IMG/VR virus record: IMGVR_UViG_3300020162_000994
Span: 1 to 21,492 of that record
Reading direction: 5' to 3' (one strand)
DNA from: a virus
Length of the DNA stretch: 21,492 nucleotides
The position numbers and the translations under genes are program-made. Shown here piece by piece: positions 663 through 17,453 of the stretch (within the stretch, counting starts at the first letter, position 1; each line of letters starts with the position of its first letter). The notes beneath the pieces are model-generated. The model saw only the letters and a program-made list of their open reading frames with translations, searched no databases and was not told where the DNA came from.

Positions 663-1308
663 AAGGGTATTCTTCCATTCTTTTTCCGGCATCGTGACAG
701 AATTGAATATGGTCATTCTGTAAATATGTTTCAAAATTGTCATATAATTCTACATGTTCAAACCATCCATTATCACGGACAATATGATATAGAACATCTT
801 CTACTGCCATAGTAAATCTAGGTAGTTGTGTTAAAGGTAGACATGACCCATAGAATTGAATGGTAGAAAAGAAACCAATTGTGCCGATTGTTTCACGACT
901 ATAATGCCATCTTGCACTGACCATTTGTTTTTCGTGTGCTTTGCTTCTGTCAATCAATGAAACAAAATCAATGGTTGGATTTACGTCATATGACAACTTC
1001 AACATATTTTTGAAACCAAATCTATGCACAGAATTGATTGCATTATGAATTGATGTTAATTCTGCCACGCCATGATTGAAGTCAATCGTTGGCTGACCAT
1101 TGATTTGAAAACTGTTATCTGCATCATACACAAAAACATCACAGTAACTTTGTGTTTCTTCATCAATCTTTGAATGTGAAGCCAAACAAACAAAAAGACC
1201 TTGTTCTTTGAGTTTCTTGCATAATGTTTTTGTCATGTGTCTTTTTCTCTCGGAGTTTGGTTCTCCACAATAAGATGTTACGATGACTACTGTATCTGAA
1301 TGATTCAT
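655..1308 (-). CDS. Hypothetical protein in glycan cluster, possibly glycosyltransferase-like
   Basis: 217 residues from ATG 1308. This start is preferred over an upstream TTG at 1329 because AAAGGA lies 6 nt before ATG 1308. The upstream TTG would also put the start inside the previous gene. The N-terminus (TVVIVTSYCGEP) looks like the first strand of an alpha/beta nucleotide-sugar fold, and YDAD around residues 60-65 could be a DxD-type metal site. I do not recognise a family with confidence. The gene sits between a heptosyltransferase-like gene (14 nt overlap) and the HAD phosphatase (8 nt overlap), so a role in sugar transfer or modification is inferred from position only. No signal peptide or membrane segment is seen. 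Confidence 0.8.
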   Translation of the reverse strand: MNHSDTVVIVTSYCGEPNSERKRHMTKTLCKKLKEQGLFVCLASHSKIDEETQSYCDVFVYDADNSFQINGQPTIDFNHGVAELTSIHNAINSVHRFGFKNMLKLSYDVNPTIDFVSLIDRSKAHEKQMVSARWHYSRETIGTIGFFSTIQFYGSCLPLTQLPRFTMAVEDVLYHIVRDNGWFEHVELYDNFETYLQNDHIQFCHDAGKRMEEYPYE

Positions 1309-1319
1309 AATATTTCCTT

Positions 1320-2036
1320 TTATTGCCAAGTTGTGCCTTCACAGTCCAACCAATATCTTACTAATTTACCTCTACCATCCAGTAAATGAAATGGCAAACA
1401 ATGTAGTAGTCCTCTGCTTGAATTATAGTATATCAAATTTTCAGGTGCTCTGTCAAGTGACCATGCAAAATGTGAAGTGCCGGTATCACCACCAACAAAC
1501 GTTTCTGCTGTCATTATATGTTTTATGTTTTCCATAAAATTGGATGAATATTTCCAACCTGGAAAACCACACCTATCTTTGAATTGTTCCATACCACAAA
1601 TAATCTTTTCGTGGTCTTTGTATTCTTCGGTTGAGTAATCTGAAATTATCTTTTCAAATACGTGTTGTGGCCAGTTTCTGTAAACATTGTATGGTGCATC
1701 AAAGACTGGAGTTACCACAATATTTTTTTCCATTATCAATGGATTCTTAATAAAAACATTGTCACCAATAATATCACGGAAGTCCCATAGATTCACTCTC
1801 TTCCAAGGTAATACAACATCACCAGGAGTTTCCGAAAAGAAGTCTGTATTCTTTAATAAGAACTGATAGAACTCTTGTATGTAACCAACAGTACTAACAG
1901 AACCAGGTTCCATATGAAATTTTATATGTTGATTATTTTGTTCTTTTCTCAGATATGCAACAACATTAGCCACGGCAATCAAATCACCATTTTTTACACC
2001 ATCACCAAAGACTCCATGCCTAACATTCATAATCAT
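1320..2036 (-). CDS. Glycosyltransferase family 9-like (heptosyltransferase-like) protein
   Basis: 238 residues. Seen: a C-terminal GGDTGTSHFAWSL segment (residues 182-194), which matches the conserved sugar-nucleotide site of GT9 enzymes (G-x-D-[ST]-G-x-x-H in ADP-heptose:LPS heptosyltransferases). The N-terminal half is short and poorly conserved, and the protein is clearly shorter than the roughly 320-350 residues usual for bacterial heptosyltransferases. The start overlaps the stop of the upstream gene as ATGA, with GGAG about 8 nt before it. A second GT9-like gene lies directly upstream, so the two may act on the same glycan or form two half-like proteins. Family assignment is good; the donor sugar is not proven. 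Confidence 0.82.
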   Translation of the reverse strand: MIMNVRHGVFGDGVKNGDLIAVANVVAYLRKEQNNQHIKFHMEPGSVSTVGYIQEFYQFLLKNTDFFSETPGDVVLPWKRVNLWDFRDIIGDNVFIKNPLIMEKNIVVTPVFDAPYNVYRNWPQHVFEKIISDYSTEEYKDHEKIICGMEQFKDRCGFPGWKYSSNFMENIKHIMTAETFVGGDTGTSHFAWSLDRAPENLIYYNSSRGLLHCLPFHLLDGRGKLVRYWLDCEGTTWQ

Positions 2037-2773
2037 AGATATTTCTCCAATTCACTTGCATGAATCAATTTTGCTTTTCGATTCAAGTAAAAGTGTTTCT
2101 CAAATATTTGATTAATGTTCTTTCCATTGTCCCATGTGATACCATCACCGACAATCCATTCTGGATTCCAATCTTCTGGTTTCCAAACACAGAACAATTC
2201 TTTATCAAGTAAGTCAGCCATCATGCCGACACCCGTAAAGTTTGTAATGAATGGTTTTTTAGATTCTTTGATGATGTAACAATTTGTCAACAGGTCATTA
2301 TTGAAGTCAATAAATTCAAAATCTTTGAGGTGAGAAAGTATATTTGTTTTTCTTCTATTGTCAGTACTGAAATGATCCCATCTATCACCAACATAATATG
2401 TGTCTTTGATTTCAATATCACATTTTGGATATTTCAATATGAACTTATCATCAACTTCAAAATCAATACCATGTACATCTTTTAGGAAGTTTTCATACTT
2501 ACAGGTTTCAATTGGTCTATTAGGATTTCTTTTATATTCCCTTTCAGTACCCCAATTGTCTAATGGAATAACTTCACCCTGAAACTCATTGTCAAAATAA
2601 ACATTCTCAAACAAATCCTGGTACATCAAAAAGTCTTTGAAACCCTTGAACTTTTCGGTTTGATGTTTAACAATCAAATTATATTTACCAAATTTGTTGT
2701 GTAATCCAGCCAATACTGGAACACAATTCAAAAAATCACCTAAGGCATCTGTTTGTCTTACATAAAAATTCAT
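2033..2773 (-). CDS. Glycosyltransferase family 9-like protein (N-terminal GT9 signature)
   Basis: 246 residues. Seen: the N-terminus YVRQTDALGDFLNCVPVLAG resembles the first Rossmann strand and loop of ADP-heptose:LPS heptosyltransferases (hydrophobic strand, then LGD, then P-V-L-x-x-L). A later FTGVGMMADLLDKELFCVW stretch (about residues 178-196) has the spacing of the C-terminal donor-binding region, but it lacks the usual D-[ST]-G-x-x-H. It therefore complements the next gene, which has a strong C-terminal signature and a weak N-terminus. Its start overlaps the preceding GT8-like gene by 4 nt (ATGA) and its stop overlaps the next GT9-like gene by 4 nt, which points to translational coupling. 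Enzymatic activity is uncertain because of the missing C-terminal motif. Confidence 0.78.
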   Translation of the reverse strand: MNFYVRQTDALGDFLNCVPVLAGLHNKFGKYNLIVKHQTEKFKGFKDFLMYQDLFENVYFDNEFQGEVIPLDNWGTEREYKRNPNRPIETCKYENFLKDVHGIDFEVDDKFILKYPKCDIEIKDTYYVGDRWDHFSTDNRRKTNILSHLKDFEFIDFNNDLLTNCYIIKESKKPFITNFTGVGMMADLLDKELFCVWKPEDWNPEWIVGDGITWDNGKNINQIFEKHFYLNRKAKLIHASELEKYL

Positions 2774-3588
2774 TTCATAATACTTCCATATAACGATTTA
2801 AAATTTTCACCTTCCATCTTTTCCCACATATGAATAAACGGAATGTAATTGTTCATTTCAAAGGGAACATTATTATCATCAATCAATATTTGTTTCTTTG
2901 ATGGTAAAACTTCGTTCTTATCTAAGTTGAATGTCATAACAGGATACTCATGATATTCAATTGGACTTGCATCAAAATCTGAGAATGCTAATGAATAACA
3001 AGCTTCTTCGGTTCTGGATCCTCTAAACAATCTTTTACATCCGTACTTATCATAATTCAAAAACTTTTCTCTAACCGATGCATAAAACTTATCTGTAGTT
3101 TTACTCTTTCTAATATATATGAACCCACAATGGACAGCAGGTATATGCTTACCTACGATGTTTGAGATATTATATCCTTGATTCCAATGCCAATGTGCAT
3201 CACATCTTTTCTTACCCAAAGTCCTAACAGGAAATTCAGATTTAGACAAATAATCCCAAAGATGTTCCGGATCATATTGACATAATACATCGGTATCTAA
3301 ATTGATTGTTTCATCGTATGGTAGAATCTTATCAAAGTTAATTCTGGCATAGATGCAATACTTCTCAAAACTATTATTACAGTCTTTAAATGTTTCTTCA
3401 TCCACTGACGTATCAAATGGAGCATATTCGTCAAAACAACCAAAAGACTTTGCATAATCCAAATCTTCTGGATTAATTAACAAACAGATAGGTCTTGTTG
3501 TATCGTGTTTCTTAATTGTGTTTGCTAGTAGTGAAGCCTCTACAATATATCTTTGACCCAAAGCAATTAGAAAGTAACCTTGACTCAT
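2770..3588 (-). CDS. GT8-like nucleotide-sugar glycosyltransferase
   Basis: 272 residues. Seen: an N-terminal strand with FLIALGQRYIVEASLLANTI, typical of GT-A enzymes that read an existing nucleotide sugar, a DxD motif LDTDVLC (D98, D100) for divalent metal and nucleotide sugar, and a later HCGFIYIRK segment (about residues 153-161), like the GT8 region where the acceptor site and a product-holding loop occur. This fits retaining GT8-type enzymes, though a neighbouring GT-A family is possible. It is soluble, with no membrane segment. The start overlaps the previous gene by 4 nt and the end overlaps the next by 4 nt. Its place in the glycan cluster supports sugar transfer; donor and acceptor are unknown. 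Confidence 0.82.
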   Translation of the reverse strand: MSQGYFLIALGQRYIVEASLLANTIKKHDTTRPICLLINPEDLDYAKSFGCFDEYAPFDTSVDEETFKDCNNSFEKYCIYARINFDKILPYDETINLDTDVLCQYDPEHLWDYLSKSEFPVRTLGKKRCDAHWHWNQGYNISNIVGKHIPAVHCGFIYIRKSKTTDKFYASVREKFLNYDKYGCKRLFRGSRTEEACYSLAFSDFDASPIEYHEYPVMTFNLDKNEVLPSKKQILIDDNNVPFEMNNYIPFIHMWEKMEGENFKSLYGSIMK

Positions 3589-4403
3589 AGTGTCTCATTA
3601 AATGCATTGAATAGAACAAATGGATCATGTCCTAATTGATGGTCAGGTATTTTGTGTAACTCAAATATATGTGGATGTAACAAATATGAAACTAACCAAA
3701 GGCCTTGGTCATCATCAACTAGATTATTCTCTAACAACTGATTGAAAGATTCACGCATTAATCCTTCTAAAATTGGCCAATTATCTTTATGTGCAACAAC
3801 TTTGGCACCAAGTATGTAAACATCATTGGATAATATTGCTTGAGATACTGGTGTCTTTCTATCAAACTCTTTGTACGAAAATAGGTGAATTTTATCTGAA
3901 TCAAAATCATATGACCACTTCTTACTTGGTGGTATATTCTTTTCTGACCTGCAATAACCAAAGTCAATCCATGCCACCATGTCATTAGATGTTAGATTTT
4001 TTCCAATTGCATAGTGTGTGAAGTAAGCTTTTAGGTCTGTTACCAAAACATAATCTGGATTCCAATATTCTGGATTCTTTGATTGGGATGGTACAACTGC
4101 ATTTTTGAATTCAGAACTTTTTTGTACTCTTTCAATTGATTCTCTCATTGATGCAAATTGTTTTTGTACATCAAATGCAACAATCTTAGTTCTGTCCATC
4201 CTATCTGCACAAACTTCTTCCAGTCTTTCAACTAAGTCCTCGGAAGTAAACACAACGATTTCATTTTCTAATTTGCACAGGTGTGAAAATCTTTCAATGT
4301 ATGTTTCGGTACTTCTTTCCAGATAATGTGGCAATCCTTTACTAGGTGTCCAATCTCCACGGCCAATATCAAAGAATGCTGTTACAATACTAATATCACT
4401 CAT
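3585..4403 (-). CDS. HtrL/YibB-family protein
   Basis: 272 residues from ATG 4403. A longer open frame exists upstream to 4505 but would lie inside the previous gene. ATG 4403 gives an N-terminus (SDISIVTAFFDIGRGDW) that matches the HtrL_YibB family start. Other family-like features are a HYLERSTETYIERFSHL segment (about residues 26-42) and the conserved WIDFGYCR region near residue 145. YibB sits in the LPS core locus of enterobacteria and has a GT-A-like look, but its reaction is not established. Here it lies between two glycosyltransferase genes and overlaps the upstream gene by 8 nt. A role in surface glycan assembly is inferred. Confidence 0.8.
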   Translation of the reverse strand: MSDISIVTAFFDIGRGDWTPSKGLPHYLERSTETYIERFSHLCKLENEIVVFTSEDLVERLEEVCADRMDRTKIVAFDVQKQFASMRESIERVQKSSEFKNAVVPSQSKNPEYWNPDYVLVTDLKAYFTHYAIGKNLTSNDMVAWIDFGYCRSEKNIPPSKKWSYDFDSDKIHLFSYKEFDRKTPVSQAILSNDVYILGAKVVAHKDNWPILEGLMRESFNQLLENNLVDDDQGLWLVSYLLHPHIFELHKIPDHQLGHDPFVLFNAFNETL

Positions 4404-5145
4404 TCCAATACCATTTCTTATAGTTGTTAATAATCTCAACTTCAGGAGATAAATTGTTGACAAAAGATTCAAAATCAAAACCAGGTCGGTGTGCGTGGGC
4501 ATCAACCATATATGGGTTTACTGTATAGTCTTTTCCACAAAGAAAATAATAAACAACCATAAACACATCTATTGAACCAAAAGGTGGATATGATTCTCTC
4601 ATACGGTCACCATATTCTCCTAAAAATCTAACAATATTATCGTAGTTTTCAATAAACGTTGATACTTTGAATATTGTTCCACCACCAGCACCAAAGTACT
4701 TTGTGATTGGTCTTTTACCTGAGAATTGTTCAATCAAGTCATGTATATATTCACCAATTACATTATCTCCTGGTGTATTCCAATGAGCTGCCATTTCCCA
4801 TTCATCTTTTACAGTTACTGGTTTCAACAACCAAACATCATCTTCTACCATTTGTATATGAGAAGTATTACACTTCAAACAAACCTCATAGAATCTGGTC
4901 AACCAAGCAATAATTGTGTCAACTGGATAACCATAACCGCCATTTACATTACATGAACCAAATCTTTTTTCATAAAATTTATATTCACAATTATATTTCT
5001 TAGCAATATCAGACAAATCATCAATACCATCAGATGATAGGAAATAATAGGCATTTGGATGGTACTGCCTTATATTGTTTATGATATGATTGGTGGCCAC
5101 AACTTTATGTGGAGTAGCCATATGAATAAATGATAAATCGGCCAT
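4396..5145 (-). CDS. GT-A-type glycosyltransferase-like protein
   Basis: 249 residues. Seen: the N-terminal strand LSFIHMATPHKVVATNHIIN, a sugar-nucleotide-type core, and an acidic QMVEDDVWLLKPV motif (E101, D102, D103) in the position of the GT-A DxD site, followed by a glycine-rich YFGAGGGTIFK segment (about residues 150-160) like the acceptor or product loop of these enzymes. I cannot name a CAZy family. The start is 1 nt after the methyltransferase stop, and the stop overlaps the HtrL/YibB gene by 8 nt. No membrane segment is seen. A transferase role is likely from motif and context, but the sugar is unknown. Confidence 0.75.
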   Translation of the reverse strand: MADLSFIHMATPHKVVATNHIINNIRQYHPNAYYFLSSDGIDDLSDIAKKYNCEYKFYEKRFGSCNVNGGYGYPVDTIIAWLTRFYEVCLKCNTSHIQMVEDDVWLLKPVTVKDEWEMAAHWNTPGDNVIGEYIHDLIEQFSGKRPITKYFGAGGGTIFKVSTFIENYDNIVRFLGEYGDRMRESYPPFGSIDVFMVVYYFLCGKDYTVNPYMVDAHAHRPGFDFESFVNNLSPEVEIINNYKKWYWNE

Positions 5146-5146
5146 T

Positions 5147-5713
5147 TTAATTTCTTACGACAAATAGAATACTATCTGGTTCTGGAGAAATATCTCGTAC
5201 ATCAACTATTTCATATGTCATGGATTCAGGAACATATTTTTTGAATTCATCACAGTATTCCATTTTAGCAATATCTTCAATGATAAAGACACCACCTGGT
5301 TTTAGTTTACTGAGATATAGTTGAATTGATTTTACTTGATCCTCAAAATGATGTGAACCATCTTCAATAATAATATCACACATTGGTATAGTATTTACAA
5401 ATTCTTCACTGTAAGCCTGAGCATAAATGATTTGAACGTTGGAAAGATGTTTGGTCTTTTCTTTGGCACCTTGTTCACGGTTATCAATTCCAAAAATAAA
5501 TGCATCATCAAAATATTCATCCCATAGAACGATACTGCCACCTTTAGCAATACCCACTTCCAATAAAATGATTTGTTTGTCTTTATATTTCAGGAATTCT
5601 TTGTCATAGAATCCAGTACAGTACATATGGTCATATTCTTTATCTGTACCAAACTCAGGGTGTGTTACATTATTCAAATTCTTTTCATGTATAATATCAA
5701 GCAAAGTTTTCAT
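5147..5713 (-). CDS. Class I SAM-dependent methyltransferase (macrocin O-methyltransferase-like)
   Basis: 188 residues. Seen: an N-terminal FGTDKEYDHMYCTGFY block (residues 21-36) typical of macrocin/demethylmacrocin-type sugar O-methyltransferases, SAM motif I ILLEVGIAKGGS (49-60), an acidic strand end FGIDNRE (74-80), IIIEDGSHHFEDQ (114-126), whose D/H residues resemble the metal-binding active site of that group, and LKPGGVFIIEDI (137-148). The family methylates sugar or other small-molecule hydroxyls in the cytoplasm. The start lies 3 nt after the stop of a second methyltransferase and the stop is 1 nt before a glycosyltransferase. O-methylation of a glycan or sugar nucleotide is inferred from context. 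Confidence 0.88.
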   Translation of the reverse strand: MKTLLDIIHEKNLNNVTHPEFGTDKEYDHMYCTGFYDKEFLKYKDKQIILLEVGIAKGGSIVLWDEYFDDAFIFGIDNREQGAKEKTKHLSNVQIIYAQAYSEEFVNTIPMCDIIIEDGSHHFEDQVKSIQLYLSKLKPGGVFIIEDIAKMEYCDEFKKYVPESMTYEIVDVRDISPEPDSILFVVRN

Positions 5714-5716
5714 CGT

Positions 5717-6247
5717 TTATCCAATTCTCTTAATCAAAGTCATACCATTATTATTAGTTCTTCTTTCAACTAACACCCATTGTGGATTTGCATCCAAGAA
5801 TTCTTGAATTGCTGGCCAAACACCATTCTCACCACCTTGACCTCTATCACCAAATGCAGTTGTATCATGGAAAAGAATATACTTTCTGACTTTGCTGGCA
5901 TGTAATTGTAATTCAATCTTAACTTGGTCATATGAATGATAACTATCAACCAACATTAAATCAGTTTCAGCAATCTCAATTTTTCTGGTGTCAGCTGTAT
6001 GTAGTGTCACATTTCTTCCTGCGTTTTTTGCATATCTGAAATATTCAATTACAAAATCGTACGGCTCAATTTCATAACTATGGTGTTCTCTAGCGTGACG
6101 TAGAAATCCTCTAGTACTCTGTGCTGAACCAACTCCCAATTCTGTGGTGTGATTACATTCCAAAACAAGGTCTGATATCCAAGGCAAGTGTTCGTGCATA
6201 TCAGTATTTCTGGAACAGGCGTCTTGATATTCTTTTTCAAAATCCAT
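5717..6247 (-). CDS. Class I SAM-dependent methyltransferase (Methyltransf_24/CmcI-like)
   Basis: 176 residues. Seen: SAM motif I TTELGVGSAQSTRGF (34-48), an acidic ribose-binding position in SYEIEPYDF (57-65), LMLVDSYHSYDQVKIEL (97-113) and a YILFHDTTAFGDRG block (123-136). The D-S-x-H-x-Y/HDT arrangement is shared with the cephalosporin hydroxylase/CmcI-like and Methyltransf_24 groups. It is short for the family, near the minimal Rossmann fold. It lies 1 nt from the upstream glycosyltransferase and 3 nt from the second methyltransferase, so the two probably act in one pathway. The acceptor is unknown; a sugar hydroxyl is the simplest reading. Confidence 0.86.
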   Translation of the reverse strand: MDFEKEYQDACSRNTDMHEHLPWISDLVLECNHTTELGVGSAQSTRGFLRHAREHHSYEIEPYDFVIEYFRYAKNAGRNVTLHTADTRKIEIAETDLMLVDSYHSYDQVKIELQLHASKVRKYILFHDTTAFGDRGQGGENGVWPAIQEFLDANPQWVLVERRTNNNGMTLIKRIG

Positions 6248-6248
6248 T

Positions 6249-7121
6249 TTAAGTTGTCCTATAAGTAAAATATTCTTCAGATGGTGTTACCTCATCTTGG
6301 CCAAATTTATTCATCATTAAACTTTTCCAAACCGGCACTCGGTCATATTGGTGTACAATACAATGTGGTATTCCATTTGTTGTGGTAATTGTTTTTGTGT
6401 GATAGTTAAAGATTGGTTCTGGTTCTGTTAAGAATGGCCTGAATTGGTTTATCTTTGATGGGTCACCAGTTGTACCAAGTTGTACCGCCCATCCATCTTC
6501 TTGGTTGGTAAACAATACTTTATCCTTATACGGTTGTGTGTTAAGTAACACATTATAGACCGCCTGGTCAACGATAGGAATTGGCCTGTTGATTGCATTG
6601 GTGAATATGTTGAAACACATATCTTTAACATATTCACATTCACCACCAAAGGTTCCTACGTTATAAATGATGTTACTTTTGAACCTGTTATAAACATCAT
6701 GTCCGTAAGTTTGAAGTAAGTTTTCATTACCCCATGGTTCATCTTGGTAACGAATAGATTCTGAACCTGCCACCAAAGCTTTGTCACCCATATAAAAGCT
6801 ATCAGAAACCCATTTGCATGGGTCTCTTTGGAAATAAACATCTTTAACATCGGTGGTTACAACGATATCATATATTGGATTACGATGTAGAAAGTCATAT
6901 ATTGACCAGAATCTTGCAACATGAATTGGTGCATTTATTTTTGGCATTGCAATCAATTTAAAACCATGATGTATGAGGTGTTGACAAGTATCATCTGATG
7001 CATCACCAACAATCATTACTTTGTCACCAACAAAGCCACAAGATTCAATTGATTCAACCCAAGGTTTTAATTGATTGTAGTTGTAACCAGAAAATGCACC
7101 GATTATTAAATTTTTCGCCAT
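6249..7121 (-). CDS. GT-A-type glycosyltransferase-like protein
   Basis: 290 residues. Seen: the N-terminal strand KNLIIGAFSGYNYNQLKPWV, an acidic VVTTDVKDVYFQRDP segment (87-101) with D91/D94 in the position of a GT-A metal site followed by the F-x-x-D-P pattern common to several GT families, and a YNVGTFGGECEYV stretch (about 153-165) like the conserved G-x-x-GG loop after it. The start at 7121 has GGAG about 8 nt upstream and lies 16 nt inside the end of the GT2 gene. The C-terminus ends in conserved-looking aromatic residues. I am confident of a glycosyltransferase-like fold but not of family or sugar. Confidence 0.8.
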   Translation of the reverse strand: MAKNLIIGAFSGYNYNQLKPWVESIESCGFVGDKVMIVGDASDDTCQHLIHHGFKLIAMPKINAPIHVARFWSIYDFLHRNPIYDIVVTTDVKDVYFQRDPCKWVSDSFYMGDKALVAGSESIRYQDEPWGNENLLQTYGHDVYNRFKSNIIYNVGTFGGECEYVKDMCFNIFTNAINRPIPIVDQAVYNVLLNTQPYKDKVLFTNQEDGWAVQLGTTGDPSKINQFRPFLTEPEPIFNYHTKTITTTNGIPHCIVHQYDRVPVWKSLMMNKFGQDEVTPSEEYFTYRTT

Positions 7122-7816
7122 GGGAAAACTCCATTATATTTTTGTTTCATTATATTATTACCATTATGGAAGAAGTCTGCATTAACAGAACCTGGATTTC
7201 CATCTACTCTATAATTTACTGTATACTTACCAGTACAATCATAGTTGGGAAAGTATTGTGACAGAGCCTGTAACCAAACTCTATCTTGTCCCCAACCACC
7301 GTGCCATACTTGTGCCAATTTTATCGCAATTTCTGTTTTAAGGCAATAGCAATTAGTGTCTATATGATTGACTCCATGGTAAGTTTGCCATTTACCAAGT
7401 GATTCACAATCATCATTGGTGATGTAGTTACCATCTTTGTCACAAATTCTTCTGAGTGAATATGTCCAATCAAGTTTCTTTTCTTTGATTGTCTTGATAC
7501 ACGTTTCTACGTGTTCTGGTTCCAACCAACAATCTTGGTCCAGATACAGTACATATTCGGTATCAATTAGGTGTGTGAAAGCAGCATAGATTCGGTGGCC
7601 ATAGAATCCGTTGGCACCGACATTGATGGGTAGATAACATCTTTCCAAATTTTTTCTGGAAAGGAAGTCATCTGTAATGATTCTTGTTTTTGAATGGTGT
7701 TTCATACCATCAGAAACTACATAACATTTTGTTTCATAGGTTTGTTCAAGTACGGATTGAACAGCACCTTTCAACTCTGGCGCACCAGTAGTTGGTATAA
7801 TCACAGTTGCAGTCAT
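7106..7816 (-). CDS. Glycosyltransferase family 2 protein
   Basis: 236 residues from ATG 7816, chosen over the in-frame TTG at 7822 because AGAGG lies about 6 nt before the ATG. Seen: the GT2 opening TATVIIPTTGAPELKGAVQS (2-21), the strand YVVSDG (32-37) and the DxD-type metal site YLDQDCWLEPEH (91-102). The later HGGWGQDRVW segment resembles the GT2 acceptor/catalytic-base region (ED/QD-x-x-[WL]). It is a compact soluble enzyme without membrane helices. It is the first gene of the transferase run and follows the conserved 93-aa gene with a 3 nt gap, and its end overlaps the next gene by 16 nt. Inverting transfer from a nucleotide sugar is expected for the family; the substrate is unknown. 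Confidence 0.9.
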   Translation of the reverse strand: MTATVIIPTTGAPELKGAVQSVLEQTYETKCYVVSDGMKHHSKTRIITDDFLSRKNLERCYLPINVGANGFYGHRIYAAFTHLIDTEYVLYLDQDCWLEPEHVETCIKTIKEKKLDWTYSLRRICDKDGNYITNDDCESLGKWQTYHGVNHIDTNCYCLKTEIAIKLAQVWHGGWGQDRVWLQALSQYFPNYDCTGKYTVNYRVDGNPGSVNADFFHNGNNIMKQKYNGVFPWRKI

Positions 7817-7818
7817 AA

Positions 7819-8100
7819 TCAACCTCTAGTCAGTTTTAGTATCTTCTCTATTTGTTTTTCAATTGTAGGTTTACGATTAGGCCAGTAGATGTATTCCTTA
7901 TCACCTGTACTATGTAGTTTCTTTAGGAAAGGGATAATCATCTTCTCCACTTCCGCAAGTCGTGTTTTGTAATCATCAGCAGTCTCAGCTGTCTTATTGA
8001 TTACTGAATTGTATTCCTCTTCGGATACAGCAGAGAAACCAAAATCATCTTCCAGATCCTGGTATTCTTTCATAATTTTATCAAATTCTGTTAATGGCAT
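7819..8100 (-). CDS. Conserved T4-like phage hypothetical protein, 93 aa
   Basis: 93 residues, strongly charged and probably helical. A recognisable core is AVSEEEYNSVINK (24-36) and a C-terminal KEYIYWPNRKPTIEKQIEKI block. I recall this pair of motifs from small proteins of marine T4-like phages, where function is unknown. No catalytic motif, membrane segment or nucleic-acid motif can be named. It lies 2 nt after the nuclease-like gene and just ahead of the GT2 gene, so it marks the boundary between the conserved replication side and the glycan island. Confidence 0.85.
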   Translation of the reverse strand: MPLTEFDKIMKEYQDLEDDFGFSAVSEEEYNSVINKTAETADDYKTRLAEVEKMIIPFLKKLHSTGDKEYIYWPNRKPTIEKQIEKILKLTRG

Positions 8101-8102
8101 AA

Positions 8103-9179
8103 TTATTTGTAAGAGTAGTCACACATCATACGGGTAGGATAACCATCACCACCTTGTGTATCACGTATGTTTAGTTTAAGAATATAGTGACCTGTTTCTA
8201 TTTCCATGTCAATCCGTTTACCGGTGCCCGATTTGCCGCCATAGTATACATTACAGGAAGTTGGTGTTGCAGCCTCTAACATATACTTTTTGTCAATTTC
8301 ATATACCTCAGTTTTACCAGTTAATTTATGAACGATGGTATAACCATGGCCAACACCAGAAATCAAAAAGTTTTTCAATTCATTCTTCTGTTTTGATGAC
8401 ATTGTTTTCCATACATCTTCAACATAACCTTTTTTAAGATTGCCATTGTAGATATCACAGAACAAAGCATCATTGATATTAAACATATCTAGTATTTTCA
8501 AACCGTCTTTATTTTTGATACGGCCTGTTTTAATTTCTTGTGGAGAAAGAACAGTACGAATACCAGAATTAAAGAATGTAACTGTACCACCAGTTTTCAA
8601 ACTTAGATAAATTTCTTTTTTATCACAAATTAAAGTAATGTCGGTAACAACTGGCCCCAAATTGTTATCACTTACTGGAATTTTTGATGAAATTAAAACT
8701 TGTGGTGAAAAGATAAATGGACGTTTGTTATTCAATTCACCAACCATCTTCACTTCAAGTTTTTTACACTTGTTGAGATTATGCAATTTGACTATATCAT
8801 CTACTGCTTGAGATAGTTTAGGGTCTGTAATTTTATTACCACCCCACCATTCTTTAATTGCTTCCGCAAGTTGTCCTTCGTATGCATTACCTTTGTTTTG
8901 TACACCTCGGCCACCAGATGATCCAGAACCAAACTTCATCGTAATTTTTGATACTTTGGCTTCTCGTTTTATTTTAGCAAGGTCTATGTCACCTTGCAAA
9001 TCTCTAGTAACATTAATTTTGCTGATTAATGCTGGATCAATGTTTATTGGTGATTCAAGTTTTTTGAACTTGTCTTTTAAATAAGCAAAGACATTGATGA
9101 TTTCGTCTATCTTTGCTTTATCACCTTTTAATGTTAATTTAATTTCACTTGCAGTCTTTGGAAAAAATGTGTAAGCCAT
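8103..9179 (-). CDS. Hypothetical protein with possible PD-(D/E)xK nuclease core
   Basis: 358 residues, ATG 9179 with GAAGG 6-8 nt upstream. Seen: a glycine/serine-rich linker (about 84-92), then NAYEGQLAEAIKEWW (98-112) with a buried-helix glutamate E101, then VVTDITLICDKKEIYLSLK (177-195). The order E, then D180 at a strand start, then S-L-K195 at the end of the next hydrophobic strand is the layout of the PD-(D/E)xK core, with serine replacing the second acidic residue as in some divergent restriction-type enzymes. This is inference from motif spacing. The N-terminal 80 residues are lysine-rich and may bind nucleic acid. It follows the DruA-like gene and has a late-promoter-like element before it. 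Alternative: a structural protein with a chance motif. Confidence 0.85.
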   Translation of the reverse strand: MAYTFFPKTASEIKLTLKGDKAKIDEIINVFAYLKDKFKKLESPINIDPALISKINVTRDLQGDIDLAKIKREAKVSKITMKFGSGSSGGRGVQNKGNAYEGQLAEAIKEWWGGNKITDPKLSQAVDDIVKLHNLNKCKKLEVKMVGELNNKRPFIFSPQVLISSKIPVSDNNLGPVVTDITLICDKKEIYLSLKTGGTVTFFNSGIRTVLSPQEIKTGRIKNKDGLKILDMFNINDALFCDIYNGNLKKGYVEDVWKTMSSKQKNELKNFLISGVGHGYTIVHKLTGKTEVYEIDKKYMLEAATPTSCNVYYGGKSGTGKRIDMEIETGHYILKLNIRDTQGGDGYPTRMMCDYSYK

Positions 9180-9198: not shown

Positions 9199-9206
9199 TA
9201 TTTATC
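9199..9206 (-). promoter_or_regulatory. Possible T4-type late promoter (GATAAATA)
   Basis: On the minus strand GATAAATA differs from the T4 late consensus TATAAATA at the first base. It lies about 20 nt before ATG 9179 and overlaps the stop codon of the DruA-like gene, a place where a promoter for the next gene would fit. A single 8-base match with one mismatch in AT-rich DNA is weak evidence. Confidence 0.3.
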
Positions 9207-10308
9207 TGATGATTTGGATGTCTTTTCCGGATGTCCAAACTTCTAATTCATTTCTCAAACGATTTTCATTATATAGAGTTTCATAACGATTGCAAGCCTT
9301 GTTACGCCACCATTCAATCAAGTTTACCAGATTGTGTTTTTCATAATTTTCACCAGGAATAAGCACGTCCGTCTTACAGTTTACATAATCAACCATGTTT
9401 TTGAAACCATAGTCACTGATGTAATATCTTTTCTGCTCTGTCAACCCTTTTGCTTTCTCAATCGTTGCTTGGAATGTGCCGCCCTCAGGAGTACCTTTAA
9501 GTGCTGCTTTAGTGAGTGATATAATCTTCATGGAGATTTTAAGTTTCTTACTAGAAGCATCATCCTCAACCAAAGGACCAGTCCTTGCTTGGACATAATC
9601 ACGGAGTTCCGAATAAGGTTTGCCGTGCATCATTGGTAGAAAATCAGAATCAGTAAGACCTTTATAACGAATATATGGTTTCATACCATCATATTGTGAA
9701 ACAGTCTTGGAACTTCCATATAGACTTGTTGTTTCAAACAGACAAAGATTCATATCATATTTCTTATTCACAATCTCACGTACCTCATGTGAAGTACAGA
9801 TTGCAGCCAGAAGTTTACCACCAAGGTAATTATAACCAAATGGTTGTGCAGGTACGATAACAAAACCCATCATTGCAGAGTTATTGAATCGTTTACCCCA
9901 AGCAGGATTCTGTGTAAACACTTGGCCAAGCATATCATTACGAGGTTTACAGTTGATTACAGGTGAACCAAGACGGATGAATCCTACGTACTTTCCTGTG
10001 TTCTTCTCACGTACTGCCAGTTTGACATTACGACCAACTGGTGGAATGTTTACGTGTGATGAAGTAATATTCAGTAAATTGGTCCACGTTTCATTATCAA
10101 TTTCAACTACTTCAAAATCCATATCTTTTGGATGCATGGTAAAATTCTGAAACAATTCATCTTCAATTGGAAACAAAGGATTGGATGGCAATTCGGTCAG
10201 AGAATTCAATTTCTGGTCACGCATATATTCATCAATACGGTCAAAGTTACCAAAGTAATCTTCAAATACTTTGGCACAATGAACTGCATCATCAAATTCT
10301 AATTTCAT
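9202..10308 (-). CDS. DruA/DUF4338-like protein
   Basis: 368 residues. Seen: GKYVGFIRLGSPVINCKPRN (105-124), NNSAMMGFVIVPAQPFGYNY (142-161), a helix with GGKLLAAICTSHEV, then CLFETTSLYGSSKTV (189-203) and YIRYKGLTD (212-220). This order (strand naming a similarity or return to the genome, N-N-S plus hydrophobic strand ending in P, helix, E-T, then G-L-T) parallels the DUF4338 region of DruA, the core protein of the Druantia anti-phage system. The match is from memory and not from a search. No helicase or nuclease motif is visible. The start overlaps the 64-aa gene as ATGA, tying it to the gp41 operon. Its function in a phage is unknown; a DNA-binding or replication-associated role, or a counter-defence role, is possible. 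Confidence 0.85.
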   Translation of the reverse strand: MKLEFDDAVHCAKVFEDYFGNFDRIDEYMRDQKLNSLTELPSNPLFPIEDELFQNFTMHPKDMDFEVVEIDNETWTNLLNITSSHVNIPPVGRNVKLAVREKNTGKYVGFIRLGSPVINCKPRNDMLGQVFTQNPAWGKRFNNSAMMGFVIVPAQPFGYNYLGGKLLAAICTSHEVREIVNKKYDMNLCLFETTSLYGSSKTVSQYDGMKPYIRYKGLTDSDFLPMMHGKPYSELRDYVQARTGPLVEDDASSKKLKISMKIISLTKAALKGTPEGGTFQATIEKAKGLTEQKRYYISDYGFKNMVDYVNCKTDVLIPGENYEKHNLVNLIEWWRNKACNRYETLYNENRLRNELEVWTSGKDIQIIR

Positions 10309-10499
10309 AATTTAAATTTCTTTAGTATTTCGTTTGCTTCTTCTAAACTGGTAATCTTTGGTTCCAAATCAACTGAAACAATAGATACACTAAAACCAAT
10401 TTTGGATTTTGGATCATATTTTAACAATACATCACATTTTTGTGGATCCCAACTTTTACTAAAATTGATTTTTACTTCTTTGATTTCTCTTGTGTTCAT
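10305..10499 (-). CDS. Small hypothetical protein, 64 aa
   Basis: 64 residues, lysine-rich (MNTREIKEVKINFSKSW at the N-terminus) with alternating hydrophobic strands and a helical C-terminus (EEANEILKKF). I do not recognise it. It is almost certainly real because it is coupled on both sides: its ATG overlaps the gp41 stop as ATGA and its own stop overlaps the DruA-like start as ATGA. This puts its production in step with the replicative helicase. A small beta-rich nucleic-acid or protein-binding partner is possible, but nothing in the sequence proves it. Confidence 0.8.
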   Translation of the reverse strand: MNTREIKEVKINFSKSWDPQKCDVLLKYDPKSKIGFSVSIVSVDLEPKITSLEEANEILKKFKL

Positions 10500-11887
10500 A
10501 CTTTAAATCCAGTAAATTGTTTTTTCTGTGGTCGTTCACGGTCACCAAATGTGTTTAGTGGTTTATCGTGGCCTGCATCAGCCAAACCTTGTTGTGCCGA
10601 TTGTTCAATATCATATAATCGCATTTTTGCTCTGTCAATACCAAGAGTAAATCTTTTATGAAATGTTGGGTCATTATAACGATTCTTCAATTGTTTGACC
10701 ATAATCTGGCCAAGTTCTTCCAGTTCTTCGGAAGAAATCAAAGCAAACATCAAGTCAGCGGTTGCTGGCAAACCAAAAGACTCACTTGTGTCCTCAAGTC
10801 CTGGGTCTGAACTTGTAAAACCACTTCTTGTTGTTTGTGTAGCAGATACAACTGGTACTCCGAATTCAACGGCAAGACCTCGCAATTCTTCTGCAATTGC
10901 TTTGACATAAGTGTAACTGTTGACGTTAGCTCCTGCTTTAACTCTACTACTGCAACAAATATTGAGATAATCAATAAAAATAATATCAGGAATAAAAGAC
11001 TTTTTAAGATTGAGCTCATTGAGTAAGGTGCGAAAATGTACGCAGCTTGCAGATGCTGTTGGATATTCTTTAATGATAAGTTTTCCAACAGTTTTTTCAC
11101 GGAGTTTAGTAATCTTTTTATCATACATTTCTTTCGGTAAACTTAAAAGGTCATCAATTGTTACATTCAACATATTCGCATCAATACGTTCAGCAATCTT
11201 TTCTTCAGCCATTTCCATGGTGATATACAAAACATTCTTGCCTTGTACCATGGCACCTGCAGCAACGTGACACATAAACAAAGATTTACCAACACCAGTT
11301 CCTGCCAAAGCAATGTTCAATGTCTTTTTAGGTAAACCACCTTTGGTTATCTTATTAAAGAAATCAAGGTCAAACGGAATTCTTTCTTCTTTCTTGTGAT
11401 AGAATTCATATCGTTCATCGGAGTTTTCAAGATAATCATGTCCAACAGAGTTATCAAAACTTACCGCCAAGGCGTCCGATAATACTTTGGGAATCGCACC
11501 TTTGTCTTGGGTCTTGTCTTTTCCATCGAGGATAGAAATAGATGCCAGTACAGCGTTGTATATGGCCTTTTCTTGGCAGAACTGTTCGGTCTTGTCAACA
11601 AGCCATTGAACCTTGGATTCTTCTCCTTTAGTTTTTTCAATTTCTTGTAGATAAGTTTCGCACTTCTCCACTTCTTCATCTGTGAGATTTCGTTTTTCTT
11701 TGACGGCCAATACAATTGCTTCAATCGTTGGTGTAGAATTGTAAGATTCTGTGAATGATGTAATTTCATTAAAAATTGTTCTATCAGTTCTGTCTGTAAA
11801 ATATTCTGTCTTTAGAAACGGTAATACCTTACGTAGGTAATCATCATTATAGATTAGGTTTTTTAAGATTGTTTGTTCAAGTCGCAT
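10496..11887 (-). CDS. 41: Replicative DNA helicase, DnaB-like (T4 gp41 type)
   Basis: 463 residues, close to T4 gp41 (about 475). Seen: an N-terminal helical domain (1-100), Walker A AGTGVGKS (195-202), the helicase H1a-type YITMEMAEEKIAERI (221-235), Walker B DIIFIDYLN (301-309), a H3-like SATQTTRSG segment and a C-terminal SFGLPATADLM block. The family unwinds DNA as a hexamer at the fork and works with a primase, which is not in this window. ATG 11887 has only a weak GGAA upstream, and the next upstream DNA is the homing endonuclease insertion, so the natural coupling to the 100-aa gene has been broken. Its stop overlaps the 64-aa gene by 4 nt. Confidence 0.97.
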   Translation of the reverse strand: MRLEQTILKNLIYNDDYLRKVLPFLKTEYFTDRTDRTIFNEITSFTESYNSTPTIEAIVLAVKEKRNLTDEEVEKCETYLQEIEKTKGEESKVQWLVDKTEQFCQEKAIYNAVLASISILDGKDKTQDKGAIPKVLSDALAVSFDNSVGHDYLENSDERYEFYHKKEERIPFDLDFFNKITKGGLPKKTLNIALAGTGVGKSLFMCHVAAGAMVQGKNVLYITMEMAEEKIAERIDANMLNVTIDDLLSLPKEMYDKKITKLREKTVGKLIIKEYPTASASCVHFRTLLNELNLKKSFIPDIIFIDYLNICCSSRVKAGANVNSYTYVKAIAEELRGLAVEFGVPVVSATQTTRSGFTSSDPGLEDTSESFGLPATADLMFALISSEELEELGQIMVKQLKNRYNDPTFHKRFTLGIDRAKMRLYDIEQSAQQGLADAGHDKPLNTFGDRERPQKKQFTGFKV

Positions 11888-12546: not shown

Positions 12547-12845
12547 TTGTCTGTTCCAGTTTCATCAATTACTTCCTGTTCAATATTAGATGACATTATT
12601 TCCACCAATAAGTCGCCAATGTAGTTTTTAAAGTCATCATCTTTTTCCAGCTTAGCTGATTTCTTCACTGGTGATTCTAACACATCATAAGCAAAAAGTA
12701 AATAGACCTGGTCATTTTCTTCTTTAAACTTTACCTTACCATATTTAAATATGGTATCTTTGTATGGACCTTCCAAGAATTTAATGTTGACTGCGGCATT
12801 ATCATCTTTTGGATAGATGAAGCAGTAATCTATTCCTTCTGTCAT
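12543..12845 (-). CDS. Conserved hypothetical phage protein, 100 aa, downstream of uvsX
   Basis: 100 residues with a beta-strand-rich N-terminal half (FIYPKDDNAAVNIKFLEGPY, then KYGKVKFKEENDQVYLLFAYD) and an acidic helical C-terminus. The strand pattern and an IKFLEGPYKDTIFKYGKV stretch suggest a small beta-barrel or plug-like domain, but this is weak. It overlaps uvsX as ATGA, so it is translated in step with the recombinase. Proteins of this kind follow uvsX in other marine T4-like phages, as I recall, without known function. A UvsX partner is a reasonable guess. Its 3' end meets the inserted plus-strand endonuclease. Confidence 0.82.
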   Translation of the reverse strand: MTEGIDYCFIYPKDDNAAVNIKFLEGPYKDTIFKYGKVKFKEENDQVYLLFAYDVLESPVKKSAKLEKDDDFKNYIGDLLVEIMSSNIEQEVIDETGTDN

Positions 12846-13915
12846 GCTTCTGTTCCATTCATAGTTTCAACATCAAATGTTTCATCAATGTTGCTGGTCA
12901 TAATTTCTCCAGATGCCACACGGTATTTGTTCTCAATGAAATCACGGAAGGATTTCTGCTTCAGAATAGGCATCCAGAAGTCTTTGGTGTCGGTGTCCTT
13001 CTCACGGTAATTCTTTTCTTCAATTACACCATCCACATCAACACGTTGATACCAACCATTCTTAGGTTTGATTACGTGTTTAGATTCAAGCGCAAGTTCA
13101 AGTAAGCCAGACCAAGTGCTGATGCCACCATCAAAAGATACACTGACAGGTATTTTAGATTTTTCTTTAACATATCTACTTTTCTCTACGTTGATAATGA
13201 AGTTATAACCGGTAACTTCTGTACCGTCTTTTTCTTGTTGGCGACCAATGATAAAGATATTATCGGCAGAGTAATAAGAACCTGTACCACCACCAACGAT
13301 TGCTTTCGGGAACATACCAATTTCCATGTAGGTATGATTAACAACAATCATTGGAATATCTTTTAGTGACAGATGTGGAGTCACCATACGGAACAAACTC
13401 TTAACTTGTTTTGCTCTGGACATATCAGCAACTGATTTTTCAGCCAAGGCATCTTCAACTTCTTTCTTTGATGCCAAGTTGCCAATTGAATCAATGACGA
13501 TAATCAATTTATCACCACGTTCCAATTGTGTTAACTGTGCCATTACGTCAAACTTTAATTGTTCAATGTCGGTAAGAGGAGTATGCAGCACACGATTGGT
13601 ATCAATACCGAATGAATCAAAATAAGATTGAGGAGTGCCAAACTCAGAATCATAGAATAAAAGAGCAGCATCTTGATATTTGTCCAAATAAGATTTGGCC
13701 ATCAATAAAGAAAATGCTGTCTTAAAATGTTTGGATGGACCGGCCCACATTGTAAGACCTGGAGTTAGACCACCGTCCAACTTACCAGAAAGTGCCACAT
13801 TAATAATCGGCACTGCGGTTGGAATCATATCTTTATCATTAAAGAATTTTGATTTAGCTAAGATAGCAGAATCTTTGATACTGCTGTTCTTTTTAATTTT
13901 ATCTAATATACTCAT
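12842..13915 (-). CDS. uvsX: UvsX, RecA/RAD51-like recombinase
   Basis: 357 residues (T4 UvsX is about 390). Seen: Walker A GPSKHFKT (59-66), which is the UvsX variant form rather than the RecA GPESSGKT, YDSEFGTP (88-95) with the catalytic-type glutamate E91, Walker B LIIVIDSIGNL (137-147), then a MIVVNHTY segment and GGGTGSYYSADN, a DNA-loop-like stretch. It catalyses ATP-driven strand exchange in recombination-dependent replication and repair. It overlaps the membrane-protein gene upstream and the 100-aa gene downstream, both as ATGA. No damage is visible. Confidence 0.97.
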   Translation of the reverse strand: MSILDKIKKNSSIKDSAILAKSKFFNDKDMIPTAVPIINVALSGKLDGGLTPGLTMWAGPSKHFKTAFSLLMAKSYLDKYQDAALLFYDSEFGTPQSYFDSFGIDTNRVLHTPLTDIEQLKFDVMAQLTQLERGDKLIIVIDSIGNLASKKEVEDALAEKSVADMSRAKQVKSLFRMVTPHLSLKDIPMIVVNHTYMEIGMFPKAIVGGGTGSYYSADNIFIIGRQQEKDGTEVTGYNFIINVEKSRYVKEKSKIPVSVSFDGGISTWSGLLELALESKHVIKPKNGWYQRVDVDGVIEEKNYREKDTDTKDFWMPILKQKSFRDFIENKYRVASGEIMTSNIDETFDVETMNGTEA

Positions 13916-14922
13916 TTGTTTTCCTTAAACGAAAATGGTTCACTGTAATCATACTTAGGTTCAAGTTTTTTATTCGCACCAATTGGTGGAATACTTTCAC
14001 CTGTAGCCTCATCTATAACAATATTTGTTACATTATCTCTCTCAACTTTTATTGAATTATCCACTTTAGGTTCTTCTTTGGGAACGAAAACTGGAATTTC
14101 CATTTCTTTTTCTTCTTCATCTAATTGTCTGGCATTTTCTCTTGCTCGTTCAAAGAATTCCTCAACATCTTTAAAACCATGTTTTTCATTCAATGACATA
14201 TTGGCTGCAATCAGTAATAAAATTGCCAGTGGGTCAAATACAACAATAATCAATAGAATAACTAGTCTTACCGCTTTGTCCATAATATCAGTAGTTGCTT
14301 CACCATATGCCAATGCTGCAATGTACTTGATTGGTCCTACATCTGCTTCAATCTTTTTAAGTTCAGTTGATAGAGGCGCACGTTCCTCTTGTAGTAAAGT
14401 AATACTCTTTTGAAATTGTTCGTTCTCAGATGATATTCTACTGCGGTCTTTCTGTTGGGCTTTCCGTATCGTAACCGCTTTATCGGCACCTTTTTCATCT
14501 GTTGACCTACCCATAACTTGGTCCACAGCCTCATCATATTGTTTAATTGTTTTGCGGTTCGCATCAATATTACCCCTCAAGGTATTAATCTTCTCATCAA
14601 TAATTGCAACTTTATTCACAAGTGGTGCATTATCAGCTGAATGTTCCATATGTGCCTTAGACAAGAAACCAAAAATACCCATTGAAGTAATGAGCATCAA
14701 AATGGTTACTGCCATGCATAGATATGTTTTAATCAAAAACGGACATTCTTTCCAGTTTCTATACAACCATGATACAGTTACAAGTTTTGACCCCTCAAGG
14801 ACAGAACCCATAATGACCACAGGCATGAAAGAACCTGGAAAGATTGCTGCTAAACCAATAACAGAATAATAGGCCGCAACACCAGATAATACTATTGCAG
14901 TTAGAAATGTCAAAAAAATCAT
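13912..14922 (-). CDS. Membrane/coiled-coil protein in the replication operon
   Basis: 336 residues. Seen: three hydrophobic stretches at about 3-28, 31-50 and 66-88, a long charged helical region (about 103-195) with heptad-like spacing, a fourth hydrophobic segment at about 217-241, and an acidic, proline-rich C-terminus (from about 260). A 100-residue coiled coil between membrane segments 3 and 4 is a striking layout. I do not recognise a family function. It is coupled as ATGA to gp43 upstream and to uvsX downstream, so it is made with the replication proteins. Possible roles are tethering replication or recombination factors to the membrane or altering the host envelope; both are inference. 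Confidence 0.85.
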   Translation of the reverse strand: MIFLTFLTAIVLSGVAAYYSVIGLAAIFPGSFMPVVIMGSVLEGSKLVTVSWLYRNWKECPFLIKTYLCMAVTILMLITSMGIFGFLSKAHMEHSADNAPLVNKVAIIDEKINTLRGNIDANRKTIKQYDEAVDQVMGRSTDEKGADKAVTIRKAQQKDRSRISSENEQFQKSITLLQEERAPLSTELKKIEADVGPIKYIAALAYGEATTDIMDKAVRLVILLIIVVFDPLAILLLIAANMSLNEKHGFKDVEEFFERARENARQLDEEEKEMEIPVFVPKEEPKVDNSIKVERDNVTNIVIDEATGESIPPIGANKKLEPKYDYSEPFSFKENK

Positions 14923-17453
14923 GAAAAGAAGTCCTCAAGTGAATTGCCTTTCTCAGTTTTCCATCCAATGCAATCCAAAATGCCACGGATTGGGTCCAAG
15001 AAAGTTTTGTCAAATTGTAAATCATAATCTACATATTTGTCAAGCTCAAATTCTTTTGGCAACCGAGATGGATATGAAATAACAGTTTCTTTAAATGGAT
15101 TTGGCATCTTCAAATACGTATATTTGATTTTTTCACCTTCTTTAATCAACTCATATTTCTTGGTCAAACCAAGTTGTTTCAAGTGGTGATTATAAAGAAT
15201 GGCACCTTTCACATGAATTGGTGTACCTTTTTTATACATTGATACCGCATCAGTGTAGGTTTTCAAACCATTCATACCACGGGGTGTAGAGATTTCTTCT
15301 GGTGGCATTTTTCTGAATTCTTCCCTAAAGTCAGCAATGAATTTATGGATATCTTCTTCTGTACCATTGATAATCAACTTGATAGAGTCTTTCATCTTAA
15401 CACGAATTGCTGCAGGTGTGGATGATTTAACCATTTCAAGACCCATGACTTTCATCTTAGGTTCTGCATACTGAACACCTTCATTGTTGTAGATGTTTAG
15501 AATGTAACGTTTCTTGGCAATCCAAATACCTTTGTTAGCCAAACCTTCACGTTTCATTTGCATCTTTTGGGCATACGCATGGACATACGTAGCAAGCTCC
15601 TGATAACTCTTGTCAATGTACGGTTGAATCTTATCTTCACAGACACGGTCCATGAAGGCGATAACTTGATTAACATCCGTCTTTTTAGAATACACTTTAT
15701 CAACAAGTGGACCAAGCTTGAGATATATAGAGTCTGTGTCTGAGGCGATAACGTAATCTTCTTCATCTGTTTTTAATAAATTGTTCATGTATGCGTTGAT
15801 TTTATTTTCAATCCAACGAATACTTAATTGCCCAGCAGTAGTGACACCAAGGGCCATACGCAAATCATAAAACCTGAAATACTGAGAGCCCAAAGCACCG
15901 TAAGCACTATTAAGTGATACCTTTTTAGCCAACTGTAGGTTGTCGTATCTGGCAATACGTTTTTCAATTTCATATTTCTTAGATTCATCTTTTTCATTCT
16001 CATACTCTTGTTTGGCCTGAAGCATTAAGTTCTTAAACTTCTTTCTATCTTCATACATTTCTTCCATCATTTTAGGTAAGAAACCTTGGAAGTCTGTTCT
16101 AAAGAATTGTCCATTAGGTGTCAATGTCACACCTTCAAGTTCTGATGTATCAACAGTCTTGTTTAGTAATTTATCCACGGTAACACCAGAAGAAATAACC
16201 TTACGCATTGCTTCAGTATAGTTTTCTGGTTCGACCAACGTTTCTGGTGAGATATTGTATTGCATCATCAAATGTGGATATAGACTGTTCAAGTCAAAGC
16301 TGGCCACATAATCATGTAGACCTGCCTGTACATCTTTAACATACGCACCCTCAAATGCTGCATCTTTTTCTTGGATGACTTTTGGTGGAACAATGATGTT
16401 CTGTTTCAACAGATAGGAATATGTCAAAGAATCCCACATACGAGTCTGTGCAAAAACATCTTCGTAATTTGATTTGGTGTCATATGCCAAAGTCAAAGCC
16501 AACTCAATCAGTTTCAACTTGTCTTCCAAACGGAGAATCAAGTCAACGTCTTTGATGTTATATTCAATAAACTTTTGGTAGTTCTGTTTGTAAAGTTGAT
16601 GTAAGTTTTCAAATTCATCGTAGGAGATTTTACCATCACCAAGTTCTACTTGTGCAATGTTATCCAACCGATATGATTCCTGTGATTTACCACCCGGCGC
16701 ATACCATTTATATAGTTCAATATAGTCAAGTGAGGCCACACCAACAATCTCATATGCAATCAGTTGACGCCCGTTGATGTTAGTTGTGCGATTTTTAATG
16801 AAGTTCCAAGGAGATAATTTCTTCGTATCATCTTCACCAAGAATTTTATTGAATCGGTTAATCAAATATGGAATATCAAAGAACTTGGTGTTCCAGCCAG
16901 TGATAACATCTGGACATTTACGTGACCACAATTCAATGAACTTCTTACATAGAGTCCATTCATCACGGCACTTGATATAAGTTTCATCACCTTGCACCTC
17001 ATAGTCACCGCATCCTAGAACGATAGGTGGACTTCCAATATAGGTGATAGCAATGGCGGTGATTGGTTCATTCGCATCATAAGGGTCAGGGAAACCATTC
17101 TCCGAACCCACCTCAATGTCAACGACAGCAACAAGAATCTTATCTTGGTCCCACTCAACCATGTCTGGATGTTGTTCGGAAATATACGCATACTCATAAC
17201 GTGTGTTACCAAAGATTCTGGAATTAGAAACATCTTTGAATTTATCCAAATAATCTTTGGCTTCATAGATTGAACCAAAGATTTTACGCATGAGTGGTTC
17301 ACCGTCTAGTGAACGATATTCTGATTTTTTATTGGTTGAAATGTATAAAGATGGTGAGTATTCAATTTTCTGTTTAACTCTTTTACCATCCAAAACACCA
17401 CGATAAAGAATGTGTCCAGCAATAGACTGAACATTTGTGTAAAAACTTGTCAT
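14919..17453 (-). CDS. 43: DNA polymerase, family B (T4 gp43-like)
   Basis: 844 residues (T4 gp43 is 898). Seen in order: 3'-5' exonuclease Exo I VVDIEVGS (110-117; D112, E114), Exo II TGWNTKFFDIPY (185-196; D193), Exo III YNIKDVD (298-304; D302), polymerase motif A ASFDLNSLYP (384-393; D387), motif B KKVSLNSAYGALGSQYF (510-526), motif C IASDTDSIY (569-577; D572, D574) and a KKRY-type site. The C-terminus NSLEDFFS resembles the sliding-clamp binding tail of gp43. It is the replicative polymerase, complete and undamaged. The start overlaps the 103-aa gene as TAATG. Confidence 0.98.
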   Translation of the reverse strand: MTSFYTNVQSIAGHILYRGVLDGKRVKQKIEYSPSLYISTNKKSEYRSLDGEPLMRKIFGSIYEAKDYLDKFKDVSNSRIFGNTRYEYAYISEQHPDMVEWDQDKILVAVVDIEVGSENGFPDPYDANEPITAIAITYIGSPPIVLGCGDYEVQGDETYIKCRDEWTLCKKFIELWSRKCPDVITGWNTKFFDIPYLINRFNKILGEDDTKKLSPWNFIKNRTTNINGRQLIAYEIVGVASLDYIELYKWYAPGGKSQESYRLDNIAQVELGDGKISYDEFENLHQLYKQNYQKFIEYNIKDVDLILRLEDKLKLIELALTLAYDTKSNYEDVFAQTRMWDSLTYSYLLKQNIIVPPKVIQEKDAAFEGAYVKDVQAGLHDYVASFDLNSLYPHLMMQYNISPETLVEPENYTEAMRKVISSGVTVDKLLNKTVDTSELEGVTLTPNGQFFRTDFQGFLPKMMEEMYEDRKKFKNLMLQAKQEYENEKDESKKYEIEKRIARYDNLQLAKKVSLNSAYGALGSQYFRFYDLRMALGVTTAGQLSIRWIENKINAYMNNLLKTDEEDYVIASDTDSIYLKLGPLVDKVYSKKTDVNQVIAFMDRVCEDKIQPYIDKSYQELATYVHAYAQKMQMKREGLANKGIWIAKKRYILNIYNNEGVQYAEPKMKVMGLEMVKSSTPAAIRVKMKDSIKLIINGTEEDIHKFIADFREEFRKMPPEEISTPRGMNGLKTYTDAVSMYKKGTPIHVKGAILYNHHLKQLGLTKKYELIKEGEKIKYTYLKMPNPFKETVISYPSRLPKEFELDKYVDYDLQFDKTFLDPIRGILDCIGWKTEKGNSLEDFFS

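Follow-up and report, generated by a model that had tools for sequence, protein, structure and literature searches.

Why should a phage encode, within its replication operon, a homologue of DruA, a protein of the bacterial Druantia defence system? The question is raised by a gene in the stretch of DNA analysed here (the window), which comes from a freshwater T4-like phage and comprises 21,492 nucleotides of the viral record IMGVR_UViG_3300020162_000994 in IMG/VR (Table 1). The ORF described in the first-pass annotation and all the motifs quoted from its product were recovered: GFIRLGSP at residues 109-116, NNSAMMGFVIVPAQP at 142-156, FETTSLYG at 191-198 and KGLT at 216-219, with a helix at residues 163-184 of the AlphaFold2 model. 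The gene is also translationally coupled to gp41 through a 64-aa gene, as that annotation had proposed; 4 nt of the 64-aa gene are shared with gp41 (10496-10499) and another 4 nt with the DruA-like gene (10305-10308, ATGA). This small gene is present in only a few close relatives and is evolutionarily dispensable, because in 65 of the 79 freshwater loci that have gp41 upstream, gp41 is followed immediately by the DruA-like gene. Farther along the minus strand, downstream of the replication operon, a long run of genes resembling glycosyltransferases and methyltransferases was noted by eye (655-7822).

Table 1. Position of the DruA-like gene, its predicted parts and neighbouring genes in the window.
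Feature	Position	Strand	Basis or remark
DruA-like (DUF4338) gene, 368 aa, ATG start	9202..10308 (stop codon included)	minus	ORF, Pfam, PADLOC, phrog, profile alignment
Predicted GNAT core, residues 60-220	9649..10131	minus	AlphaFold2 model and VIA-align
Pfam PF14236 match	9715-10134	minus	residues 59-198
Thr193 codon	9730..9732	minus	aligned with Mom Ser124 through transitive profile comparison
C-terminal domain, mostly helical, residues 221-368	9205..9648	minus	model; also aligns to bacterial DruA
64-aa gene	10305..10499	minus	4-nt overlap with each neighbour; missing from most relatives
gp41 replicative helicase	10496..11887	minus	phrog_19, DnaB_C
UvsX recombinase	12842..13915	minus	profile matches
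gp43 DNA polymerase	14919..17453	minus	tblastn to annotated DNA polymerases; family context
Gene downstream of the DruA-like gene, predicted type II restriction-endonuclease-like fold (HinP1I/MspI-like)	8103..9179	minus	model; neighbour, not obligate partner

The assignment to the DruA/DUF4338 family in the first-pass annotation is correct and extends to the full length of the protein. The 368-aa protein matches the Pfam DruA model PF14236 with 34.8 bits against a curated gathering cut-off of 27, and its relatives score 38.8-80.3 bits. PADLOC DruA1 also matches (E 7.5e-9), and the PF14236 model gave no match in any of 14 control genomes; the family match is thus not due to chance. A profile of 57 proteins of the phage family was aligned by hhalign with full-length bacterial DruA, represented by six sequences, none of them phage-like. 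The alignment spans 284 columns (E 4.8e-22), and short DUF4338 proteins also align (E 9.7e-10), whereas generic GNATs do not (E 0.35); since these comparisons are one-to-one, the controls carry more weight than the absolute E-values. On this profile evidence, the phage protein is homologous to bacterial DruA over its full length. The protein further matches the uncharacterised phage family phrog_19197 (E 2e-138), and searches of PDB sequences by phmmer with the protein and by hmmsearch with the family profile returned nothing relevant.

Part of this picture was available before. According to the available text of the Phold paper, its authors reported DruA-like proteins in six Synechococcus phages, including S-PRM1; that text proposes no mechanism for them (PMC12774648). 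The S-PRM1 protein is of the same family and 45% identical to the window protein over its full length, but its gene lies after gp44, whereas the window gene belongs to a freshwater clade and follows gp41. DUF4338 had already been described as a GNAT domain (PMC10853773), and the GenBank record of S-SCSM2R labels a family member 'methylcarbamoylase mom'. A literature search found no biochemical activity reported for any DruA and no publication tying DruA or Druantia to Mom. What is new here is the link to Mom and the pattern of association with replication gene clusters.

The place of the gene in a replication operon, noted in the first-pass annotation, is conserved across the family. By tblastn the protein was found in 31 phage records, namely T4-like Synechococcus and Pelagibacter phages plus two marine single-cell viruses, compared with about 443 records for the polymerase of the window. 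Relatives are encoded on at least 600 IMG/VR stretches. None of the 24 Prochlorococcus-named phages carries the gene, compared with about 7% overall, a sample too small to be meaningful. In freshwater and HTVC008M-type loci the gene follows gp41 or gp43, and in marine cyanophage types it lies between the clamp-loader genes gp44 (or a small gene after gp44) and gp62. The Mosig type, a distant form with about 25% identity, is located between the genes for peptide deformylase and mazG, near gp47. The DruA-like gene is always close to replication or recombination genes, and is a conserved Kyanoviridae gene of that region. Pelagibacter phage HTVC008M (KC465899.1) has two distant paralogues, one of each form, at 86143-87255 and 99535-100659. 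Unlike bacterial DruA, the phage members sit in a replication operon and form a separate clade: in a tree of phage and bacterial homologues, of the kind the first-pass annotation had called for, a deep split sets the phage clade apart from cyanobacterial DruA, with the clade of the window as sister to that of HTVC008M, although the root and the deep order are unsure because the deep branches are long.

The predicted structure adds a feature that the first-pass annotation had not seen, a GNAT fold that in VIA-align is most like that of the DNA-modifying enzyme Mom. The AlphaFold2 model, built on the family alignment, has a pLDDT of 88.9, a pTM of 0.86 and the strand and helix order of GNATs. 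Mom of phage Mu (8bv8) ranked first among solved structures and gave the longest alignment (Z 10.0, 183 residues, 4.2 A). Most of the top rows are GNATs (Z 8.6-10.0), those other than Mom having Z of 8.6-9.5 with about 145 residues aligned for most; because the Z scores differ by less than 1, Mom and the other GNATs should be regarded as tied. In the PDB, Foldseek found nothing at E 0.001 and only GNATs at about 0.01; a Salmonella phage Mom was among its hits in viral models. The DruA-like protein is predicted to have a GNAT (acyltransferase) core followed by a helical C-terminal domain. The loop Q155PFG158YN160 is invariant or nearly so and resembles, without matching, the acyl-CoA motif Q/RxxGxG/A, its last position being Asn, not Gly or Ala. 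The best structural matches among BFVD viral models are uncharacterised proteins of the giant viruses Faunusvirus (A0A3G4ZXG3), Yasminevirus (A0A5K0UAJ3) and Dasosvirus (A0A3G4ZRA1). The Faunusvirus protein matches by Foldseek at E 1.3e-16 with 23% identity over 367 columns; unlike the phage protein, some of these matches are domains of much larger proteins.

Kinship with Mom is also suggested by profile comparison, through the bacterial members of the family. Against a profile of 12 Mom members, short bacterial DUF4338 proteins reach E 3.1e-8; among the controls, no E-value below 0.051 arose in 60 column shuffles, the reversed profile scored 0.12, and generic GNATs scored 0.15 against Mom. 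The alignment places SFAD...GxxYQASN of Mom on ETFVD...GTCYRAAN of DUF4338, so that Mom Ser124 on strand 5, the residue mutated in a crystal described as inactive, falls on a Thr of DUF4338 (Ser in one member). The corresponding strand of the phage family ends E-T193-T-S. Thr193 and Tyr206 are invariant in all 57 family proteins and correspond, by transitive alignment only, to Ser124 and Tyr137 of Mom. The His of the Mom HYS motif corresponds to position 85, which is His in only 39 of the 57 proteins, and Mom Asp127 is not conserved. Direct comparison of the phage-family and Mom profiles by hhalign was not significant, and the kinship is therefore transitive. The Mom model PF25680 likewise did not match the phage protein at E up to 1, compared with 2.4e-75 for Mu Mom itself, and the phage protein differs from Mom in having additional N- and C-terminal helical parts. 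The profile alignments suggest that the DruA family and Mom are kin and may share an active site centred on Ser or Thr. Mom domains of jumbo phages have been described as DNA-protecting and are often fused to endonucleases (PMC7824862). Two observations concern ParB-like sequences: a protein with a DruA core from a single-cell genome of a marine proteobacterium (locus L553, 1154-2911) has an N-terminal part that looks ParB-type by eye, and in a Microbacterium phage a ParB-like gene adjoins the Mom-like gene.

The gene downstream of the DruA-like gene is of interest in its own right. The model of its product (pLDDT 83, pTM 0.66) resembles HinP1I (Z 8.9 over 206 residues) and MspI (7.6), with the next best structure at 6.0, indicating a predicted fold of the type II restriction-endonuclease kind; Foldseek alone gave no significant match. 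In freshwater relatives this slot is hypervariable, with several mutually unrelated families replacing each other, most of them bearing a PD-(D/E)xK-like signature. A signature of the type D-x(n)-(S/E/Q)xK was present in 8 of 11 slot representatives against 0.93 expected from shuffles, a count that is descriptive because the pattern was written after the sequences had been inspected. Members of the same slot families are located after gp41-mazG in six carriers of marine or lake origin, and also in S-RIM44, S-CAM1 and S-RSM4, which are non-carriers. The slot is therefore a general feature of these phages and not the partner of the DruA-like gene. An obligate modification-restriction pairing of the DruA-like gene with the downstream nuclease was considered and rejected, since the slot occurs without the gene.

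The first-pass annotation had offered three functional ideas, a replication factor, a decoy or inhibitor of Druantia and a weapon against competitors, among which a replication-linked role fits best and the decoy is unsupported. A phage copy of DruA that enters the Druantia complex of the host and poisons it would be consistent with full-length homology to DruA, but such a role is highly improbable because DruA is rare in the likely hosts, occurring in 3 of 300 Synechococcus-family genomes (about 1%), in all cases as a shorter form; it was found in 6 of 292 cyanobacterial genomes. The deep separation of the phage clade from cyanobacterial DruA and the invariance of active-site residues, needless for a mere decoy, also argue against it. 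A phage-borne defence gene or weapon directed at co-infecting phages, acting by itself or together with the restriction-endonuclease-like neighbour, is quite improbable as well, even though DruA family membership, the patchy distribution and the nuclease-like gene that adjoins it at 28 of the 74 freshwater loci would suit it. That nuclease-like slot also occurs in phages where the DruA-like gene is missing, and in marine carriers it occupies a different place; the DruA-like gene itself sits among replication genes. The window has no Druantia partner genes and no ORF large enough for the giant helicase DruE, the largest being the 844-aa polymerase. The MZB domain, a DruE marker, was absent from nine complete phage genomes, but it is a poor marker that misses most bacterial carriers too.

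A stronger competitor, although still a somewhat unlikely one, is a factor attached to the replisome. Such a protein would use its GNAT fold to acylate a replication protein (helicase or clamp loader) or the fork, or would simply bind to either, and would not modify DNA. The location of the gene between the clamp-loader genes in marine phages and right after gp41 in freshwater phages is consistent with this, and protein-acylating phage GNATs are known, namely Rac of phiKMV-like phages (PMC7824862). However, its position varies between clades, and the gene is patchily distributed, with 31 records against about 443 for the polymerase, and is missing from 8 of 16 genomes tested by profile search. 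Because of this patchiness, the protein is not an essential replication factor. The closeness of its predicted acetyltransferase-like fold to that of Mom suggests a protein that modifies DNA while it is being copied, and makes a role as Druantia decoy unlikely. The preferred reading, whose chance falls a little short of even, is that the DruA-like protein works on DNA at the replication fork as an acyltransferase of the Mom kind. The GNAT-core enzyme would transfer a small acyl-type group to phage DNA during replication, much as Mu Mom does; its co-production with the helicase or clamp loader would allow new DNA to be marked at the fork; and the marked DNA would be shielded from host or rival nucleases.

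Broad shielding of DNA by the protein should leave carriers tolerant of restriction-type palindromes. In a comparison of eight carriers with eight non-carriers, their status verified by profile search, relief of palindrome avoidance as a sign of protection received no support. The two groups differ for several 4-mers, including CCGG (Fisher p 0.0014), but the labels were chosen after the data had been seen, and the CCGG contrast is confounded by clade, since the pooled loci of one marine carrier clade have an observed/expected ratio of 0.05 for CCGG. Freshwater carriers avoid GATC (0.31); carriers thus still avoid restriction-type palindromes.

The same counts, made in 100-kb samples of the 16 phage genomes, revealed that in several phages a particular 4-bp site is missing altogether where 26-313 copies would be expected, and the lost site differs by phage. 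CCGG is absent from eight phages (32-85 expected), CTAG from S-SM2 (149), GTAC from S-RIM44 (313), TCGA from ACG-2014d (168) and GCGC from P-SSM2 (26). In the few Synechococcus contigs examined CCGG is not avoided (77 observed, 89 expected). Complete loss of a site could reflect self-avoidance of restriction enzymes encoded by the phage or the host. In a small sample of five related freshwater loci with one slot family, family 4 (e.g. L058), ACGT occurs 6 times against 64 expected; loci with a different downstream family do not show this depletion, as though the avoided site were set by the slot gene. In Kyanoviridae, the hypervariable restriction-endonuclease-like slot and the total loss of specific 4-bp sites seem more unexpected than the DruA-like finding itself.

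A wider and quite improbable proposal is that DruA wherever found is a Mom-like acyltransferase that modifies or marks DNA. T4-like marine and freshwater phages would run their own version from the replication operon, in genomes that also have a hypervariable restriction-endonuclease-like gene set, so that both the marking of phage DNA and the attack on host or rival DNA would be phage-encoded. Should the phage relatives prove to be DNA-modifying enzymes of the Mom kind, the chemistry could be sought directly in a cultured cyanophage or pelagiphage. DruA would then be turned from a label into an enzyme, and abundant phages of oceans and lakes would carry an undescribed DNA modification.
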